DNA from: an uncultured Butyricicoccus sp.
GTDB lineage: Bacteria > Bacillota > Clostridia > Oscillospirales > Butyricicoccaceae
Assembly (NCBI GenBank): GCA_900544475.1
Contig: UQVU01000019.1
Location: 1-20,214 of the forward strand
Reading direction: 5' to 3'
Length of the DNA: 20,214 bases
Each line of letters begins with the position of its first letter. The stretch's first letter is position 1. Under the pieces are notes generated by a model that saw nothing but the letters and a program-made list of their open reading frames with translations, ran no database searches and was not told the origin of the DNA. A program made the translations under genes and the position numbers. Below are positions 3,480 to 13,909 of the stretch, in pieces.

Positions 3480-3808
3480 ACGAAAAAAACTGTTTCTTCC
3501 CCGAAACGAAAACGCCCCCGGCCTTACCGCGGATAATTGTGCAAATTGACGAGCAACCCATTTGCTGGCAAAAATCCTACATTTCCTACATTGAAGAATT
3601 TTCCATGCGGTAAGAAAACCGGAAAAACGAACCCCCGACCCTTTTTCATTTCCTACATTTTTCGCGAAAAAAATCCTACACGTTTCCTACATGGGTCAGC
3701 ATTTTTAGGCTATTTTGTCGCGTATATCACGCCTGACGCAGAAAATCACGCGACCGGAAATCAGAACAATTTCACCCCGTAAAACAAAAATAGCGTATAA
3801 ACAAAGAA
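3480..3808. repeat. Gene-free AT-rich stretch with five TCCTACA heptamers and two inverted repeats
   Basis: I see no credible gene here. Five identical TCCTACA heptamers, all in one orientation, begin at 3575, 3584, 3651, 3674 and 3685. Two of them flank a palindrome, TTTTTCGCGAAAAA (3658-3671). A longer inverted repeat, CTTACCGC (3523-3530) and GCGGTAAG (3607-3614), brackets the first pair. The stretch lies directly downstream of tRNA-Val in its direction of transcription, a common position for integrated elements. It looks iteron-like and may be the remnant of a mobile replicon, but no element gene or attachment duplicate is visible. Confidence 0.55.
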
Positions 3809-3966: not shown

Positions 3967-4527
3967 TTACTTCTTGCTGCGACCCAGATACTCACCGGTA
4001 CGGGTGTCGATCTGAATGCGCTCGCCCTGCTCGATGAAGATCGGAACCTTAACAACAGCACCGGTCTCTACGGTAGCCGGCTTGAGCACGTTGGTCGCGG
4101 TGTTGCCCTTGACGCCCGGCTCGGTCTCGGTGATCTCGAGCTCTACGAACAGCGGCGGCTCAACAGCGAATACGCTGCCCTTATAGGACAGAACCTTGAC
4201 GTTCTCGTTCTCCTTAACGAAGCGGAAGTCATCGCCGAGCGTGTCCTTGCTGATCGGAATCTGCTCGTAGGTTTCGTTGTCCATGAAGTAGTAGAGGTCA
4301 CCCTCGTTGTACAGATACTGCATTTCGCGGCGCTCAACAAAAGCTTCCTCGAACTTAGCAGTCGGGTTAAAGGAGGTCTCAGTAACCGCACCAGTTACGA
4401 CGTTCTTCATCTTGACACGAACAAAAGCAGCGCCCTTGCCCGGCTTTACATGCTGGAACTCAATAACCTGCTGTACCTGACCGTCCATCTCAAAAGTTAC
4501 GCCGTTACGAAATTCGCCTGCGGTCAT
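3967..4527 (-). CDS. efp: Translation elongation factor P
   Basis: A 186-residue protein of normal EF-P length with the three beta-barrel domains in order. Domain I is [20 protein letters not shown] with the KPGKG tip loop at residues 28-32. The middle domain contains [19 protein letters not shown]. The C-terminal OB domain ends [24 protein letters not shown] binds the ribosome next to the E site and relieves stalling at proline runs. The loop lysine K31 corresponds to the residue modified in E. coli (K34) and B. subtilis (K32). No lysyl-lysine type modifying enzyme is encoded in the window. The ATG at 4527 is preceded by TTGGAGGAT. A promoter lies at 4595-4623. Confidence 0.98.
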
Positions 4528-8587: not shown

Positions 8588-9658
8588 TTATTCGATCGGG
8601 ATGGTGACGCCGCCGATGGTGAGCGAGGCCATGTCCTCAAGCGGGAGAATGCGCTCGAACGTGCCCTGACGGACGCAGTATGTTTTGCCGTCCTCCGGGT
8701 CCATGCTGCCGCCGCTCGCGAGGTCGATGGTCGTGCCGTCCTTCAGGGTGATGAACTGCTCGCCGGTAAACTCTTTCCATGTGTCGCGGTGCGAGGCCGG
8801 CGCCTGGCCGCTCTCCGCGTCCTCGAACTGTACTTCGTCGTCTACCGTGTAGGCAATATTGTAGCCGATGGGGGAGAGAACAAGTTTGTCGAGCACGGCG
8901 GTCTTGCCATTGATGGTGAGCTTCTGACCCGCTGGCAGCTCCTTGGAGCAGTTTTCCGCGTCGAGCTTGAATTTCAGATGCCATGTGCCATCGACAAGCG
9001 AGATCGGGCGCTGGTTATCCTCCGAGAAGTCACGCAGGTTTTTCAGCGTGATTTTCGCCGTGCGGCCGGATTTCACCACATCGTCATACGACATGGTTTC
9101 AACGTACTGAATGGCGTTGTCGTCCGGGTTTTCGTCGTAGAACCAACTGCTGCCGATGAAGCCGCCGCTGCGGATGCCGACGTCGCTGGTCGAGTCCTCC
9201 CAGAGCAGGTCGAGCAGGTTGGTGTCCGGGTTGGTCTGGACGCCGAACGAGCTGCCGTCTTCCTTTTCGAGGGTGTAGGAGATGAGGTAGTTGTAGCCGT
9301 CGAACAGAATGGCGTCCGCCGTGACGGTCACGCCGTTTACCGTATCGCTTGCGCCGATGGGGCGTCCGATTTCGTCGATGACCTCGGTGTCGGCTGTCGG
9401 GCCGAATACCCCGGCAAAGGCTTCGCTCGCGGACTTGAGTACGCCGGTCGCGCCCGCGCCGATGCTGAGCACGAGGGCCGCCGCGACGCCGACCGCCGCG
9501 ATGCGCGGGAAACGGCGCACCCGATGCACGGCCGGCTTTTCGGGCTGCTCCGCGCTTTCGAGCAGGCGGTCTACCATGTGGTTTTTTGCCTCCTCGGAGA
9601 AATGCAGCGCGTCCATTGCGTTTTTATACTCTCTGTTATCATTATACTCTTTGTTCAT
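8588..9658 (-). CDS. DUF4179 membrane protein, probable anti-sigma factor
   Basis: A 356-residue protein. A short cytoplasmic N-terminus (residues 1-50, basic end HRVRRFPR) is followed by one membrane helix (about 52-70) and a large extracytoplasmic domain. That domain starts with a DUF4179-type segment (GVTVTADAILFDGYNYLISYTLE) and continues in a beta-rich region to the C-terminus. Such proteins are regularly encoded just after an ECF sigma factor and are thought to hold it inactive until a signal arrives outside the cell. I use ATG 9658, which has GGAGGAG seven bases upstream; the longer TTG start would swallow that site. It overlaps the sigma gene by 17 bases, pointing to translational coupling. 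The anti-sigma role is inferred from context. Confidence 0.85.
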   Translation of the reverse strand: MNKEYNDNREYKNAMDALHFSEEAKNHMVDRLLESAEQPEKPAVHRVRRFPRIAAVGVAAALVLSIGAGATGVLKSASEAFAGVFGPTADTEVIDEIGRPIGASDTVNGVTVTADAILFDGYNYLISYTLEKEDGSSFGVQTNPDTNLLDLLWEDSTSDVGIRSGGFIGSSWFYDENPDDNAIQYVETMSYDDVVKSGRTAKITLKNLRDFSEDNQRPISLVDGTWHLKFKLDAENCSKELPAGQKLTINGKTAVLDKLVLSPIGYNIAYTVDDEVQFEDAESGQAPASHRDTWKEFTGEQFITLKDGTTIDLASGGSMDPEDGKTYCVRQGTFERILPLEDMASLTIGGVTIPIE

Positions 9659-10133
9659 AAAATTCTCCTCCAAGCGTTCCGCGCAGACTTTTGCGTCCGC
9701 GGCTCAGGTGTGCGGAAACGGCGGCCTCGCTCTGTTCAAGCATGGAGGCGATTTCGCGCACGGAATATCCTTCGTAGTAATACAGGTACACGGCTTCGCG
9801 GTACTTTTTCGGAAGCGCCATCACGGCGTCGAGTACGGTCGAGTCGGGCGCCTCGGGGGCGGCGGTTTCCGCGACCGCTTCCAGCCCTACGCACCGGCGG
9901 TGCGAGGCGCGGAGCGCATCCTTGCAGGCGTTCGCCGTGGCGCGGATAATCCACGCCTTTTCGTGCTCGGGCGAGTCAAAGACCGTGCCGCCGGTCAGCA
10001 GCTTGAGGAAAACCGTCTGGCAGATGTCCTCGGCGTCCTGTGTGGATTTCAGATAGGTCCAGGACAGACGCAATATCATATCGGAGTAGGTCTGTACCAG
10101 ACGTTCCGCCTCCGTCCTGTCGATTGGTTTCAT
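9642..10133 (-). CDS. ECF-type RNA polymerase sigma factor
   Basis: A 163-residue protein of typical ECF length. Region 2 is seen at about residues 10-75, with TYLKSTQDAEDICQTVFLKLL and EHEKAWIIRATANACKD. Region 4 is at about 105-155, with LPKKYREAVYLYYYEGYSVREIA and a helix-turn-helix SEAAVSAHLSRGRKSLR. There is no region 1 or 3, as expected. It directs RNA polymerase to a small stress or envelope regulon, normally including its own gene. AAGGAG lies 12 bases before the ATG, a slightly long gap. Upstream, a 12-base palindrome AGCAACGTTGCT (10154-10165) lies in the leader. No ECF-type promoter could be assigned with confidence. Confidence 0.95.
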   Translation of the reverse strand: MKPIDRTEAERLVQTYSDMILRLSWTYLKSTQDAEDICQTVFLKLLTGGTVFDSPEHEKAWIIRATANACKDALRASHRRCVGLEAVAETAAPEAPDSTVLDAVMALPKKYREAVYLYYYEGYSVREIASMLEQSEAAVSAHLSRGRKSLRGTLGGEFYEQRV

Positions 10134-10214: not shown

Positions 10215-10243
10215 TTGACTTTTGATTTTTCGGACGGTATAAT
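10215..10243 (+). promoter_or_regulatory. Sigma-A promoter of the first MATE gene
   Basis: TTGACT (10215-10220), a 17-base spacer and TATAAT (10238-10243). Transcription should begin near 10250, so the message starts directly at the first leader hairpin, 146 bases before the start codon. Confidence 0.9.
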
Positions 10244-10253
10244 TACATTGTAA

Positions 10254-10368
10254 ACGAGTAGCACAACTGCGTAAATCCAGTTTTCGTGCGGCTCGTTTTA
10301 TTTTTTTGTTTTTTGAGCGTGCAGCATTCTGCGTAAGTCCAGCTTTCGGGGAGCAGCACGCTCTTTTT
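10254..10368 (+). promoter_or_regulatory. Tandem-hairpin RNA leader of the MATE gene (candidate riboswitch or attenuator)
   Basis: Two long hairpins, each followed by a U tract, fill the 5' leader. Hairpin 1 (10254-10296) has stem blocks ACGAG/CTCGT, GCAC/GTGC and ACTG/CAGT and runs into TTTATTTTTTT. Hairpin 2 (10315-10363) has GAGCGTGC/GCACGCTC and CTG/CAG and runs into TTTTT. Both carry the same apical core: CTGCGTAAATCCAGTTTTCG at 10267-10286 and CTGCGTAAGTCCAGCTTTCG at 10329-10348, identical at 18 of 20 positions. The flanking stems differ in sequence but still pair, which is what a conserved RNA structure predicts. Guanidine-IV (mepA) riboswitches are known upstream of MATE genes in Clostridia; I could not match this core to that consensus from memory. 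Confidence 0.7.
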
Positions 10369-10395
10369 GCGCAAAAGAAGGAGGAATTCAAAAAA

Positions 10396-11763
10396 ATGAC
10401 GGAAAACAACAGAATGAAAGAGATGCCGGTAAACCGGCTGATGGTCGCAATGGGCATCCCGATGATACTTTCCATGGCGCTCCAGGCGGTTTACAACATC
10501 GTGGACAGCGCCTTCGTCGGCAATATGCGCGAGGGAAGCGAGGCGGCGCTCAACGCGCTGACGCTGGTCTTTCCGGTGCAGATGCTCATGGTCGCCTTCG
10601 GTATCGGTACGGGCGTCGGCGTGAATGCGCTGCTTGCGCGCACGCTCGGTCAGAACAACCGGAAAAAGGCGTCGGCTGTCGCGGGCAACGGCCTGTTTCT
10701 CGGCGCGGTGATCTATGTGCTGTGCCTGCTGTTCGGCTTTGTCGGCGTGCGGGCGTATATCGTGTCGCAGACCTCGGATGAGCAGGTCATCAGCATGGCG
10801 GTCGATTATCTGTTTATCTGCTGCGTGCTGTCGTTCGGCATCATTTTCTTCTCGCTCTTCGAAAAGCTGCTTCAGGCGACCGGCCGCTCGGTCTACTCGA
10901 CCATCGGTCAGGTCACGGGCGCGGTCGTCAACATCATTCTCGACCCCATCATGATCTACGGCCTCGGCCCGGTGCCCGAAATGGGCGTTATCGGCGCGGC
11001 GCTCGCGACCGTTATCGGCCAGATCGCGTCTGCGGTGCTGCTGTTCTACTTCCACCTCAAATTAAACCGCGAATTCGACCGCGGCGTCAAGTACATGAAG
11101 CCGTCGTTTGCCGTTATTCGCGAAATTTACACCATCGGCCTGCCGGCTATCATCGCGCAGGCGCTCATGTCGGTCATGGTTTACGCAATGAACCTGATTT
11201 TGAAGTTCGACGCCTCGGCGCAGACCGCCTACGGCCTGTTCTACAAGGTGCAGCAGTTCGTGCTGTTTCTCGCGTTCGGTCTGCGCGACGCGATTACGCC
11301 GATCGTGGCGTTCAGCTACGGCATGGGCAACCGCAGGCGCATTCGGGACGGCATCAGGTACGGCCTTATCTATACGGCGGTGCTGATGGTGGTCGGCATC
11401 GCGATTACGGAGTGCTTCCCGGGTGCGTTCGCGACGCTCTTTAACGCGGGGCAGTCGAGAACGTATTTCATCGGCGCGATGCACATTATCTCGCTGAGCT
11501 TTCTCTTCGCCGGCATCAATGTCGCGTTTCAAGGCATCTATCAGGCACTCGGCGGCGGCATGGAATCGCTTGTTATCTCGCTGCTGCGTCAGCTGGTTAT
11601 CATTCTGCCGCTGGCTTACGGCTTCTCCGTAATGGTGCGGAGCGGCTCGGCGGACGTTTCGCTCATCTGGTGGGCGTTCGTTATCACCGAGGCGGTATCG
11701 TGCGCGGTCGGCTGCGTATTCCTGCGCCGGATGCAGCGCAAAGTCGATACGGTCAGGGCTTGA
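10396..11763 (+). CDS. MATE-family multidrug efflux transporter (MepA-like)
   Basis: A 455-residue protein with twelve predicted membrane helices in two related halves, the MATE length and layout. The start [21 protein letters not shown], then [17 protein letters not shown], is the MepA/NorM-type N-terminal signature. The second half repeats it in [23 protein letters not shown] and a conserved [18 protein letters not shown] stretch. These proteins export cationic or aromatic drugs and metabolites using a sodium or proton gradient. The ATG at 10396 has AAGGAGGAATTC upstream; longer in-frame starts would lie inside the leader hairpins. The stop codon overlaps the -35 of the next promoter. Substrate is unknown. 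Confidence 0.95.
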
Positions 11764-11803
11764 CATATGGTGCGGCCCGCTTTATAATTATCAACGATAA
11801 TTA
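11760..11803 (+). promoter_or_regulatory. marR promoter with palindromic operator over the -10
   Basis: TTGACA (11760-11765), a 17-base spacer and TATAAT (11783-11788) give a fully consensus promoter whose -35 includes the MATE stop codon. Overlapping and following the -10 is a perfect inverted repeat TAATTATC-AAC-GATAATTA (11785-11803). A further TAATTA half-site pair lies near 11800-11816. Such AT-rich palindromes are typical MarR operators, so autorepression is likely. Confidence 0.88.
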
Positions 11804-11830
11804 ACTTTGGTAATTACAAGGAGAAAACTC

Positions 11831-12283
11831 ATGACCATCGAAATGATCAAGGCGATGTTCGATGCGTGCTATCTCGCGGGGCGCACCCGCGCGATGCTTC
11901 CGGCGCTGCCCGAGGGCGTCACATCATCGTACATCCACTATCTCGACGTAATCGACTCGCTCGAACGTCAGGGGCTGCGTGTCCGGGTATCCGACATCGG
12001 AGAAAAGCTCGACATTCCGCGCCCCGGCGTGACGCGGACGGTCAAGGAGATGGAAAACCGCGGCTATCTCCGCAAAACGGCGTCCGAAGAGGACGGGCGC
12101 GTGGTCTACATCACCGCGACCGAGGAAGGAAAGCAGTTGTCAAAGCGCTATAATCAGGACTATTTTGCCTGTCTTGCGCCGCAGCTTGCGGATATTTCGG
12201 ACGAGGACGCGGCGTGCACCATCCGCACCATCGAGAGGATGCACCGCGTGATGAGCGAGAGGAGGGGTCGCCTTGACGGATAA
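11831..12283 (+). CDS. MarR-family transcriptional regulator
   Basis: A 150-residue protein of normal MarR length. The winged helix-turn-helix is seen at about residues 50-100: LRVRVSDIGEKLDIPRPGVTR as helix-turn-helix, then a recognition helix and the wing SEEDGRVVYITATEEG with the conserved D-x-R of the wing. Flanking helices should form the dimer interface. MarR proteins usually repress their own promoter and linked efflux genes and let go on binding a small aromatic ligand. ATG 11831 has AAGGAG nine bases upstream. The 3' end overlaps the next MATE gene by 11 bases, so the two are translationally coupled. Confidence 0.95.
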   Translation: MTIEMIKAMFDACYLAGRTRAMLPALPEGVTSSYIHYLDVIDSLERQGLRVRVSDIGEKLDIPRPGVTRTVKEMENRGYLRKTASEEDGRVVYITATEEGKQLSKRYNQDYFACLAPQLADISDEDAACTIRTIERMHRVMSERRGRLDG

Positions 12284-13625
12284 CAAAGCGGATTTTACGC
12301 AGGGAAGCATACTCAAAAAGCTGTGCCGGTTCATGCTGCCGGTGCTCGGCGCACTGATTTTGCAGGCGGCCTACGGCGCAGTCGATCTGCTCGTTGTCGG
12401 GCGGTTCGGCTCGACCTCGGGTCTGTCGGCGGTTTCGACCGGCAGTCAGCTGCTCAATCTGGTCACGTTCGTCGTGACACAGCTCGCAATGGGCGTTACC
12501 GTGCTCATCGCGCGGTATATCGGTGAAAAGCGCGAAAAGGACATCGGTGCGGTGCTCGGCGGCGCGGCCGTCGTGTTCACGATACTCGCAGCGGTGCTGT
12601 TCGTGCTGCTGGTCGGCTTTGCGCGGCCTATCGCAGTGCTCATGCAGGCGCCGGAGGAGGCGGTGTCGCTGACAACGAGCTATGTGCGCATCTGCGGCTG
12701 CGGCATTTTGTTCATCGTGGCGTACAACCTGCTCTCGGCGGTGTTCCGCGGTCTGGGCGACAGCCGTTCGCCGCTGCTGTTCGTGCTCGTGGCGTGTCTG
12801 GTGAACGTGGCGGGCGACCTCATTCTGGTTGCCGGTCTGCATCTGGACGCGGCGGGCGCGGCAATCGCAACCGTGCTCGCGCAGGCGGTCAGCGTCGTGT
12901 GTGCGCTCGTTATCCTGTTCCGCAAGAACCTGCCGTTCACCATCACGAAGCGCGACGTCCGCCTGAACGAGCAGTGCGGCCGCTTCCTGTCCATCGGTCT
13001 GCCGCTCGCGCTTCAGGAATTCCTGACGCAGCTGTCCTTCCTCGCGCTGTGCGCGTTCGTCAACCGTCTGGGGCTTGCGGCGTCCTCCGGCTACGGCGTC
13101 GCGAGCAAAATCGTCAACTTCGTCATGCTCGTGCCGAGCGCACTGATGCAGTCGATGGCGTCGTTCGTGGCGCAGAACATCGGCGCAGGCAATCCCAGAC
13201 GCGCGAAAAAGTCCATGCTGACCGGCATCGCGGTAGGCGTGGCGTTCGGCTGCGTGATGTTCGTGCTCGTCATGCTGAAGGGTGATGTGCTCGCGGGTCT
13301 GTTCTCGACCGACGCCGAGGTCGTGCGCAAGGGATTTGCGTACCTGCGCGGCTTCGCGCCCGAAACCATCGTCACCGGCGTGCTGTTCAGCATGGTCGGT
13401 TACTTCAACGGCAACAACAAAACGCTCTGGGTCATGATTCAGGGTCTTGTGCAGACGCTGCTCGTCCGACTACCGCTCGCGTATTACATGAGTATGCAGC
13501 CGAATGCAAGTTTAACGAAAATCGGTCTGTCCGCACCGGTGGCGACCGTTGTCGGCATTTTACTGAACATTATGTTCTATATCTATTTGAACCGGAAAAA
13601 TGCGGAAGAGAGGCGCGTTCGGTAA
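12273..13625 (+). CDS. Second MATE-family efflux transporter, TTG start
   Basis: A 450-residue protein with about twelve helices. It has MATE features ILKKLCRFMLPVLGALILQAAYGAVD, VVGRFGSTSGLSAVSTGSQL and AVFRGLGDSRSPLLFV in the first half and MQSMASFVAQNIGAGN in the second. It differs clearly from the upstream MATE, so it is not a recent duplicate. No suitable ATG is present; TTG at 12273 sits six to seven bases after AGGAGGGG and matches the family N-terminus, so I chose it. It overlaps marR by 11 bases and shares its promoter, so it is the most direct target of the repressor. No clear terminator follows within 80 bases. Confidence 0.94.
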   Translation: MTDNKADFTQGSILKKLCRFMLPVLGALILQAAYGAVDLLVVGRFGSTSGLSAVSTGSQLLNLVTFVVTQLAMGVTVLIARYIGEKREKDIGAVLGGAAVVFTILAAVLFVLLVGFARPIAVLMQAPEEAVSLTTSYVRICGCGILFIVAYNLLSAVFRGLGDSRSPLLFVLVACLVNVAGDLILVAGLHLDAAGAAIATVLAQAVSVVCALVILFRKNLPFTITKRDVRLNEQCGRFLSIGLPLALQEFLTQLSFLALCAFVNRLGLAASSGYGVASKIVNFVMLVPSALMQSMASFVAQNIGAGNPRRAKKSMLTGIAVGVAFGCVMFVLVMLKGDVLAGLFSTDAEVVRKGFAYLRGFAPETIVTGVLFSMVGYFNGNNKTLWVMIQGLVQTLLVRLPLAYYMSMQPNASLTKIGLSAPVATVVGILLNIMFYIYLNRKNAEERRVR

Positions 13626-13712: not shown

Positions 13713-13741
13713 TTGACATTATCGAGCGGGAGGCATATAAT
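13713..13741 (+). promoter_or_regulatory. Sigma-A promoter of the lysine-riboswitch operon
   Basis: Fully consensus TTGACA (13713-13718) and TATAAT (13736-13741) with a 17-base spacer. The transcript begins just before helix P1 of the riboswitch. Confidence 0.93.
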
Positions 13742-13754
13742 TAGTAAACAGAAC

Positions 13755-13909
13755 GGTATGATTTAGAGGCGCGGAGCGCATCAGTAGCCGCCAAAGCGGT
13801 GAAAGGGCAATCCGCCGAAGACAGCAAAGACGCTGTCTGGGGTCGAAAGCGAACAGCTTCGGCACTGCTTCTGCCGGTTGCCAGCCGACAGGAGAGAGCT
13901 GGTCATGCC
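13755..13909 (+). promoter_or_regulatory. Lysine riboswitch (L box) aptamer
   Basis: P1 is formed by GGTATGA (13755-13761) and TCATGCC (13903-13909). Between them the L-box conserved blocks appear in order: TTAGAGGCGC, ATCAGTA, GTGAAAGGGCAATCC, GCCGAAG, CTGGGGTCG and the final GGAGAGAGCTGG. The spacing and paired arms fit the five-helix lysine aptamer. An intrinsic terminator follows, which fits the common arrangement where lysine switches the operon off. An inverse response cannot be excluded by eye. Confidence 0.95.

Follow-up and report, generated by a model that had tools for sequence, protein, structure and literature searches.

What do two look-alike terminator hairpins do in the leader of a MATE family efflux gene? 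The question is raised by a stretch of 20,214 nucleotides from an uncultured Butyricicoccus sp. (assembly GCA_900544475.1, contig UQVU01000019.1), the whole of which is called the window in the following. We compare its leader with related leaders in other genomes, and also with the known classes of exporter-linked RNA. This comparison supports a conserved unit with a covarying helix, a predicted terminator that excludes it, a place next to the promoter, and an association with efflux genes. We propose, with a probability of about 0.7, that 10252-10368 holds two tandem copies of a cis-acting RNA class absent from Rfam 15, each forming either an antiterminator or a terminator and each most likely a ligand-binding ON aptamer. 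That the RNA switches, that the direction is ON, that the effector is a small molecule, that the two copies act independently and that the ligand is a gut compound is what we infer.

The conserved element is an antiterminator of 31-33 nt, composed of a helix P1, an asymmetric internal loop GNG/ARUCCR, and a helix P2 with a bulged G. The parts of the window leader are as follows.

10215..10243, + strand: promoter-like site TTGACT-17 nt-TATAAT, one base off consensus
10252..10283, + strand: unit 1, candidate antiterminator/aptamer, 48.4 bits with the covariance model; P1, 10252-10255 with 10280-10283; GNG, 10256-10258; P2, 10259-10262 (+10263) with 10269-10270/10272-10273 (+10268), bulged G at 10271; conserved AAAUCCA, 10273-10279
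10252..10307, + strand: terminator 1; AAACGAG (10252-10258) with CTCGTTT (10292-10298), GCAC (10261-10264) with GTGC (10286-10289); U-rich tract up to about 10307
10315..10345, + strand: unit 2, candidate antiterminator/aptamer, 39.9 bits with the covariance model; P1, 10316-10318 with 10342-10344, and a G10315-U10345 wobble; GUG, 10319-10321; P2, 10323-10325 with 10331-10332/10334, bulged G at 10333, C10322-A10335 a mismatch
10315..10368, + strand: terminator 2; GAGCGTGC (10315-10322) with GCACGCTC (10356-10363); U tract, 10364-10368
10396..11763, + strand: MATE family efflux transporter, 455 aa (MatE Pfam, E 8.7e-37); Shine-Dalgarno GGAGG at 10380-10384

The original prediction, of two hairpins that each end in a U tract ahead of a MATE gene, was borne out by folding and shuffling. 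The region 10250-10310 has a minimum free energy of −18.9 kcal/mol (z −3.9), equalled in 0 of 200 shuffles, and the region 10310-10375 one of −25.1 kcal/mol (z −2.4), equalled in 6 of 200. The shared core was likewise found as described: a direct repeat of 20 nt (10267-10286 and 10329-10348) is 90% identical (18/20) with starts 62 nt apart, and its consensus, allowing up to 3 mismatches, has 2 matches in the window and none in 100 shuffles. It was also right that the outer stems of both hairpins differ in sequence yet stay paired. The idea of two copies of a sensing unit, each acting as an attenuator, held in part: one conserved unit does occur twice, each time with its own terminator, but the conserved part is an antiterminator that competes with the hairpin, and not the hairpin itself. 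In terminator 1, the stem uses the 5′ strand of the unit 1 aptamer. From the position of the promoter-like site, the RNA is predicted to start near 10250, so that unit 1 would form the extreme 5′ end of the transcript.

Other features surround the leader. An ECF sigma factor gene lies divergently on the − strand (8588-10133), with an ORF without NCBIfam family behind it. On the + strand, 11760-13625 holds a MarR-type regulator and then a second MATE gene, with a perfect promoter-like site at 11760; the covariance model finds no copy of the unit at this second MATE locus. Further on, a lysine riboswitch (RF00168, 62.2 bits) occupies 13756-13909 of the + strand, with a perfect TTGACA-17-TATAAT site upstream at 13713; the ORF 3′ of it matches alanine dehydrogenase below the cut-off (262 vs 392 bits).

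Relatives of the leader were found in several searches. A plasmid search of distant DNA gave MATE genes on a Roseburia plasmid and on three Eubacterium (Lachnospira) eligens plasmid records, and the two plasmid loci inspected carry one copy and two copies of the unit. The pattern TAGCN4-7GCGTAARTCCAGYTT matched at least 119 stretches in public genomes; among the matches listed, nearly all are Clostridia, Lachnospiraceae, Oscillospiraceae or other Bacillota records, a good many of them named after gut, rumen or faecal samples. Judged by organism and context, nine were taken to be chance matches and left out (L013, L035, L052, L055, L069, L070, L094, L105, L111). The listed matches, the two plasmid loci and the window provided 137 units, of which the 83 distinct ones were aligned; the extraction rule missed 2 further units. 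One strict pattern, CTGCGTAARTCCAGNTTTC, had no match in viral contigs.

The covariance model built from the 83-unit alignment detected weaker copies in the same leaders and units in further genomes. The related leaders before other MATE genes that the original prediction called for are present in many genomes. Matches occurred in 30 of 391 genomes of a class-level sample centred on Blautia (3 judged chance by eye), 22 of 296 of a class-level sample centred on a Bacilli MAG (5 chance), 16 of 197 of an order-level sample centred on an Oscillospiraceae MAG, 14 of 196 of an order-level sample centred on Blautia (1 chance), and 3 of 148 of a class-level sample whose Spirochaetales MAG centre is one of the 3. 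Group names are inferred from the centre genome, and samples of more than 40 genomes were scored with stricter filters. A Caballeronia-centred control gave 2 of 143 genomes, both without terminator and chance-like by eye, and a Carboxylicivirga-centred one 0 of 149, in a sample with no known carrier to show that the search works. Eleven model matches with neither promoter nor terminator by eye were dropped (L152, L157, L163, L179, L180, L181, L183, L185, L193, L194, L218). The loci include the human gut bacteria Roseburia, Blautia, Coprococcus catus, Anaerobutyricum hallii, Eubacterium ramulus, Lachnospira eligens and Holdemanella biformis. Units also occur in records titled Spirochaetales or Treponema, or in the spirochaete-centred sample (L064, L095, L195, L196; MAGs, with hosts as assigned).

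We now consider the fold of the unit. The 5′ end (AARY) can pair with the core-closing GYUU in nearly all units, and among the 137 units the third 5′ base stands against Y as A-U in 78, G-C in 58 and G-U in 1. Distant members have other forms of P1, namely AUC:GAU (9), AGU:ACU (8) and AAU:AUU (5), with GUC:GAC, GAU:AUC, GUU:AAC and AGA:UCU seen once each. When 111 distinct rows were aligned to the model, 99.4% of the P1 cells were paired and each of the three pairs showed changes on both sides; pair 3-56 is AU in 59, GC in 38, UA in 8 and GU in 3 (unpaired 0/108), and pair 4-55 is CG in 78, UG in 19 and UA in 13 (unpaired 0/110). The whole structure is 96.3% paired, compared with 17-48% when slid and 86.1% when shuffled, in an alignment that leans towards the model because its rows were fitted to it.

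With model-free anchoring, the first P1 pair is formed in 210 of 214 units, the middle one in 207 and the third in 203, where the shuffles average 93%, 67% and 93%, respectively. A clear excess is seen for the middle pair alone, whose shuffled maximum is 73%; the first pair exceeds its shuffles by a narrow margin (98.1% vs a maximum of 95.8%), and the third equals the shuffled maximum. A few odd triplets in this set are probably mis-anchored, like the first copy of L062. On a tree of the MATE proteins with 106 tips, at least 26 changes of the P1 pair state are required, compared with a shuffled mean of 33 and a shuffled minimum of 28. This count follows the MATE tree and not the leaders' own history, and it is an indication only, because part of it comes from leaders that have lost one of two tandem copies. 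P1 is missing from the prediction made by RNAalifold alone. The covariation that the original prediction demanded is there, in P1.

P2 is formed by UAGC with GC-G-UA and varies little: G-C becomes A-U in 2 of the 214 rows and C-G becomes U-A in 3, and the inner pair 10-45 is GC in 109 and AU in 2, a scarcity that is partly due to the search pattern having fixed these bases. The unpaired bases are near-invariant. Both G of GNG and the bulged G are present in 211 of 214 units, and in UAARUCC the counts are U 214, A 214, A 214, U 211, C 214 and C 214; this conservation comes partly from selection of the units, because the pattern and the model demanded much of it. As is asked of a riboswitch, a conserved aptamer-like fold with covarying helices is found here in the 5′ leaders of functionally related genes.

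Two other pairings were considered and rejected. An inner core hairpin AAR:YUU has its sole variable pair broken in 10 of 83 rows, while the competing 5′-end pair 3-31 is broken in 0 of 83; for the outermost pair of that competing helix, 1-33, which 28 of 83 rows break, no claim is made. The minimum-energy fold of the isolated unit shows a helix between 5′ ACG and core CGU, but the 3′ side of this helix stays the same when the 5′ side changes, as judged from the alignment by eye.

The relation of this fold to the terminator is the next point. A stem of at least 7 pairs running to a U run follows 210 of 214 units (it would be 210 of 225 if the eleven dropped matches were counted as failures). 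The terminator partner is the 5′ strand of the aptamer in 153 of the 214, the 3′ core in 56 and unclear in 1, and the remaining 4 have no or a weak stem by the criteria used, two of them (L096, L140) with a visibly complementary arm. With shuffled downstream DNA, a stem arose in 276 of 1070 trials, 223 of them using the aptamer and 53 not. In an example of the 3′-core type (L020), GGCGUAAGUCC pairs with GGACUUACGCC. Of the 153 5′-type terminators, 145 have the variable N of GNG in a pair (T-A 61, A-T 56, T-G 18, C-G 10), and this base changes in step with its partner, which indicates that the terminator follows the changes of the aptamer. The two structures are mutually exclusive as an expression platform would be: in each of the 153 + 56 units, the predicted terminator takes at least three bases of the aptamer helices. 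RNA-level attenuation is well supported.

The energies of the two states are very different. By a rough estimate, the window aptamers alone amount to about −0.1 and −2.0 kcal/mol (copy 2 with its mismatch), compared with −18.5 and −25.1 kcal/mol for the terminators, and when a unit is folded in isolation, P1/P2 is not its lowest-energy structure. Something must therefore stabilise the antiterminator, and its calculated weakness is as expected if a bound effector is needed to hold the fold.

Of 178 leaders, 152 have a −10 box (at least 5/6) no more than 22 nt upstream of the first unit, against 20 of 201 in the control. In 120 of those 152 the box is 6-9 nt from P1, which makes it likely that the unit begins among the first bases of the RNA. 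Among the 115 single-unit leaders to which a gene was assigned, 83 have at most 60 nt between the unit and the start codon. At least 36 of the 178 leaders are tandem and 142 were counted as single-unit; the former number is a lower bound because pairs fetched as separate loci were counted as single (for instance L220/L222, on the same contig at a distance of 135 nt). In tandem leaders, the second copy begins 55-225 nt after the first. Over 26 positions with the loop left out, first copies are 92.6% identical to one another and second copies 94.1%, whereas the first and second copies of the same leader are 77.5% identical; at least one first copy (L062) is mis-anchored in this set. Being alike across leaders and unlike within a leader, the copies point to the tandem as an old, maintained arrangement. 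They also keep different P1 and terminator stems, mostly AAC:GUU followed by AGY:GCU or AGU:ACU, which explains the differing but paired outer stems of the window. To judge from the sequences, such a difference would hinder cross-pairing between the copies.

The genes behind the leaders were grouped by single-linkage clustering for 155 leaders, only the representatives being scanned with Pfam. A MATE protein is next in 105 of the 155, by direct BLAST match to Pfam-checked members; the cluster itself has 106, because a cytidylate-kinase-like protein (L049) was drawn in through a MATE-kinase fusion (L068). A CarD-like cluster is next in 16 leaders, a DUF2798-like one in 12 (its representative just under the Pfam cut-off, 23.4 vs 23.5), a 79-aa protein without Pfam family in 4, and a cluster whose scanned member has a copper-amine-oxidase-N domain in 2. 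Singletons follow 11 leaders (AraC, rubrerythrin and MFS among them, several others being probably spurious ORFs), L049 accounts for 1, where an ABC transporter membrane gene comes after the kinase-like gene, and 4 have no downstream ORF by the rule used. The occurrence of several exporter families under one RNA points to the efflux of a harmful compound.

Some of these loci have a particular organisation. The conserved 79-aa protein stands between the leader and the next gene in L043 (2215-2451), L025, L100 and L113, with MATE as that gene in 3 of the 4; the L043 copy has no Pfam match, and a second unit precedes the MATE gene there. In L006, one unit (3676-3708) comes before a CarD-like gene and another (4351-4382) before the MATE gene that follows. 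The 664-aa ORF of L068 is a MATE sequence continuing in frame into cytidylate-kinase-like sequence, and in L001, L002 and L018 the two are separate neighbouring genes. After the unit of L156, a repeated sequence KANELGFLARTPGLKFG... is encoded ahead of an MFS-like ORF below the Pfam cut-off.

Is the element already known? The original prediction could not match it to a consensus, and our search agrees: with Rfam 15 (4227 models), the window leader has no match above thresholds and none on its strand at E 10, a guanidine-IV model in Rfam 15 being not confirmed, and seven related loci also give no family above threshold. A sub-threshold Atu_C9 match overlaps the unit in L151 (21.8 bits vs 40, E 0.054). 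Lack of relatives, lack of covariation and a match to a known riboswitch were the outcomes named beforehand as refuting the prediction, and none of them was observed. Leader-peptide-type antibiotic-inducible attenuators are a further form of terminator-based control of a drug-export gene. They resemble the unit in this control and differ from it in that no start codon preceded by a Shine-Dalgarno-like site lies in or before unit 1 of the window, which makes a leader peptide unlikely there; the sole such start upstream of the MATE gene opens a TTG frame of 10 codons at 10367, past unit 2.

Guanidine-II (mini-ykkC) consists of two small tandem hairpins and is exporter-linked. The unit shares the tandem form and the exporters, and is distinguished by its conserved GNG, bulged G and UAARUCC and by the absence of an Rfam match, where guanidine-II has two conserved ACG trimers in the part of PMC7736828 available to us. 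A variant of guanidine-IV (GGAM-1, mepA motif) was the class suggested originally. According to the available parts of PMC7736828 and PMC9788692, it has a Rho-independent terminator, shown ON regulation and MATE among its targets, and in guanidine-IV/Gd4v a pseudoknot links two hairpins, of which the 3′ one is the terminator. As far as these parts go, the terminator and the MATE targets are common to both. The unit differs in that aptamer-like fold and terminator lie together in a single stretch of about 50 nt, and in that the 3′ arm of the terminator pairs with the antiterminator itself. The suggestion was accordingly abandoned: most leaders need one unit only, without a second hairpin (142/178 are single-unit, with at most 60 nt to the start codon in 83/115), and the two-hairpin pseudoknot so described is not found. 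Among the other motifs, GGAM-2 to -5 belong to other lineages (Actinobacteria or Proteobacteria), GGAM-6 occurs in one Firmicutes species, Selenomonas ruminantium, and GGAM-2, -3, -4 and -6 lie upstream of sugE only.

In the open-access literature (main texts, without supplements) no description of the motif was found, and one may exist in print or in an unpublished list. MATE, multidrug, CarD and efflux are absent as whole words from the motif-discovery papers PMC11109978, PMC6429828 and PMC8632094, and PMC2864571 matched in its reference list only. The available part of PMC2965389 mentions other leaders and not this motif, and that of PMC12934955, on flavins, offers no ligand lead. On the comparative evidence, the element is probably a new candidate class of terminator-controlling leader RNA set apart from the Rfam 15 families, and probably a riboswitch.

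The antiterminator might instead be held by a protein, with a compound-responsive, trans-acting RNA-binding protein stabilising P1/P2 as LicT/BglG do at RAT sites; we regard this as possible and rather unlikely. The RAT is a short imperfect hairpin that overlaps and excludes a terminator, usually before sugar-transport genes, and the unit follows the same logic at a similar size and is weak alone. CarD-like genes are found downstream, CarD being a family that binds RNA polymerase, and the second gene of L177 has a YlmH-type RNA-binding/S4 domain. However, the targets here are mostly exporters, and CAT_RBD is present in 1 of 28 chosen carrier genomes and missing from the other 27 (controls, 4/14), and ANTAR in 8 of 28 (controls, 0/14), where single absences mean little as completeness is not given. 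Neither LicT/BglG-type nor ANTAR proteins are thus likely to be the general effector; no antiterminator family was seen among 20 Pfam-scanned neighbour proteins, and strongly conserved loop bases next to a freely covarying P1 fit a ligand pocket. Another RNA-binding protein could stabilise the antiterminator equally well.

The two remaining explanations are far less probable. Plain tandem terminators that sense nothing and serve to reduce basal expression or to insulate the gene would account for the strong terminator-like structures of both window hairpins, but there is a second, competing fold that is conserved and covaries, and it persists even where the terminator is made with the other strand; the conservation of UAARUCC would not be expected either. 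An operator in the DNA of the promoter region, bound for instance by a MarR-type repressor and resembling an RNA by chance, is just as improbable: the motif is close to the −10 box and a MarR gene follows MATE in the window, but second copies begin 55-225 nt past the first, loop length varies, compensatory changes follow RNA pairing, and the terminator tracks the motif.

We therefore return to the ligand-binding RNA. In the mechanism proposed, each unit would form either the small antiterminator of about 32 nt or the much stronger Rho-independent terminator, which takes one antiterminator strand. Without ligand, the terminator would form and end transcription ahead of the MATE gene. A small molecule bound to the aptamer, probably a toxic substance that the MATE protein exports, would keep the aptamer in place until the polymerase has passed; from the mutual exclusion of the two structures, binding would turn the gene ON. 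In the window leader, the polymerase would have to clear two switches in series.

A wider proposal, which we hold with somewhat less confidence and still consider reasonably likely, is that of a new riboswitch class in which an aptamer of about 32 nt at the first nucleotides of the RNA would sense a compound of the animal gut and induce MATE and other exporters across common gut Clostridia. It would be wired to terminators in two opposite ways, by capture of the 5′ or the 3′ strand, and its old, conserved tandem form would have different P1 helices, which would prevent cross-pairing.

If a small molecule is sensed, the leader points to a compound that these gut bacteria must pump out, and itself supplies a ready reporter with which to find that compound. 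One fold connected to terminators in two opposite ways lends itself to a comparison of how expression platforms evolve, and the conserved tandem form makes it possible to test what two switches in series are worth.
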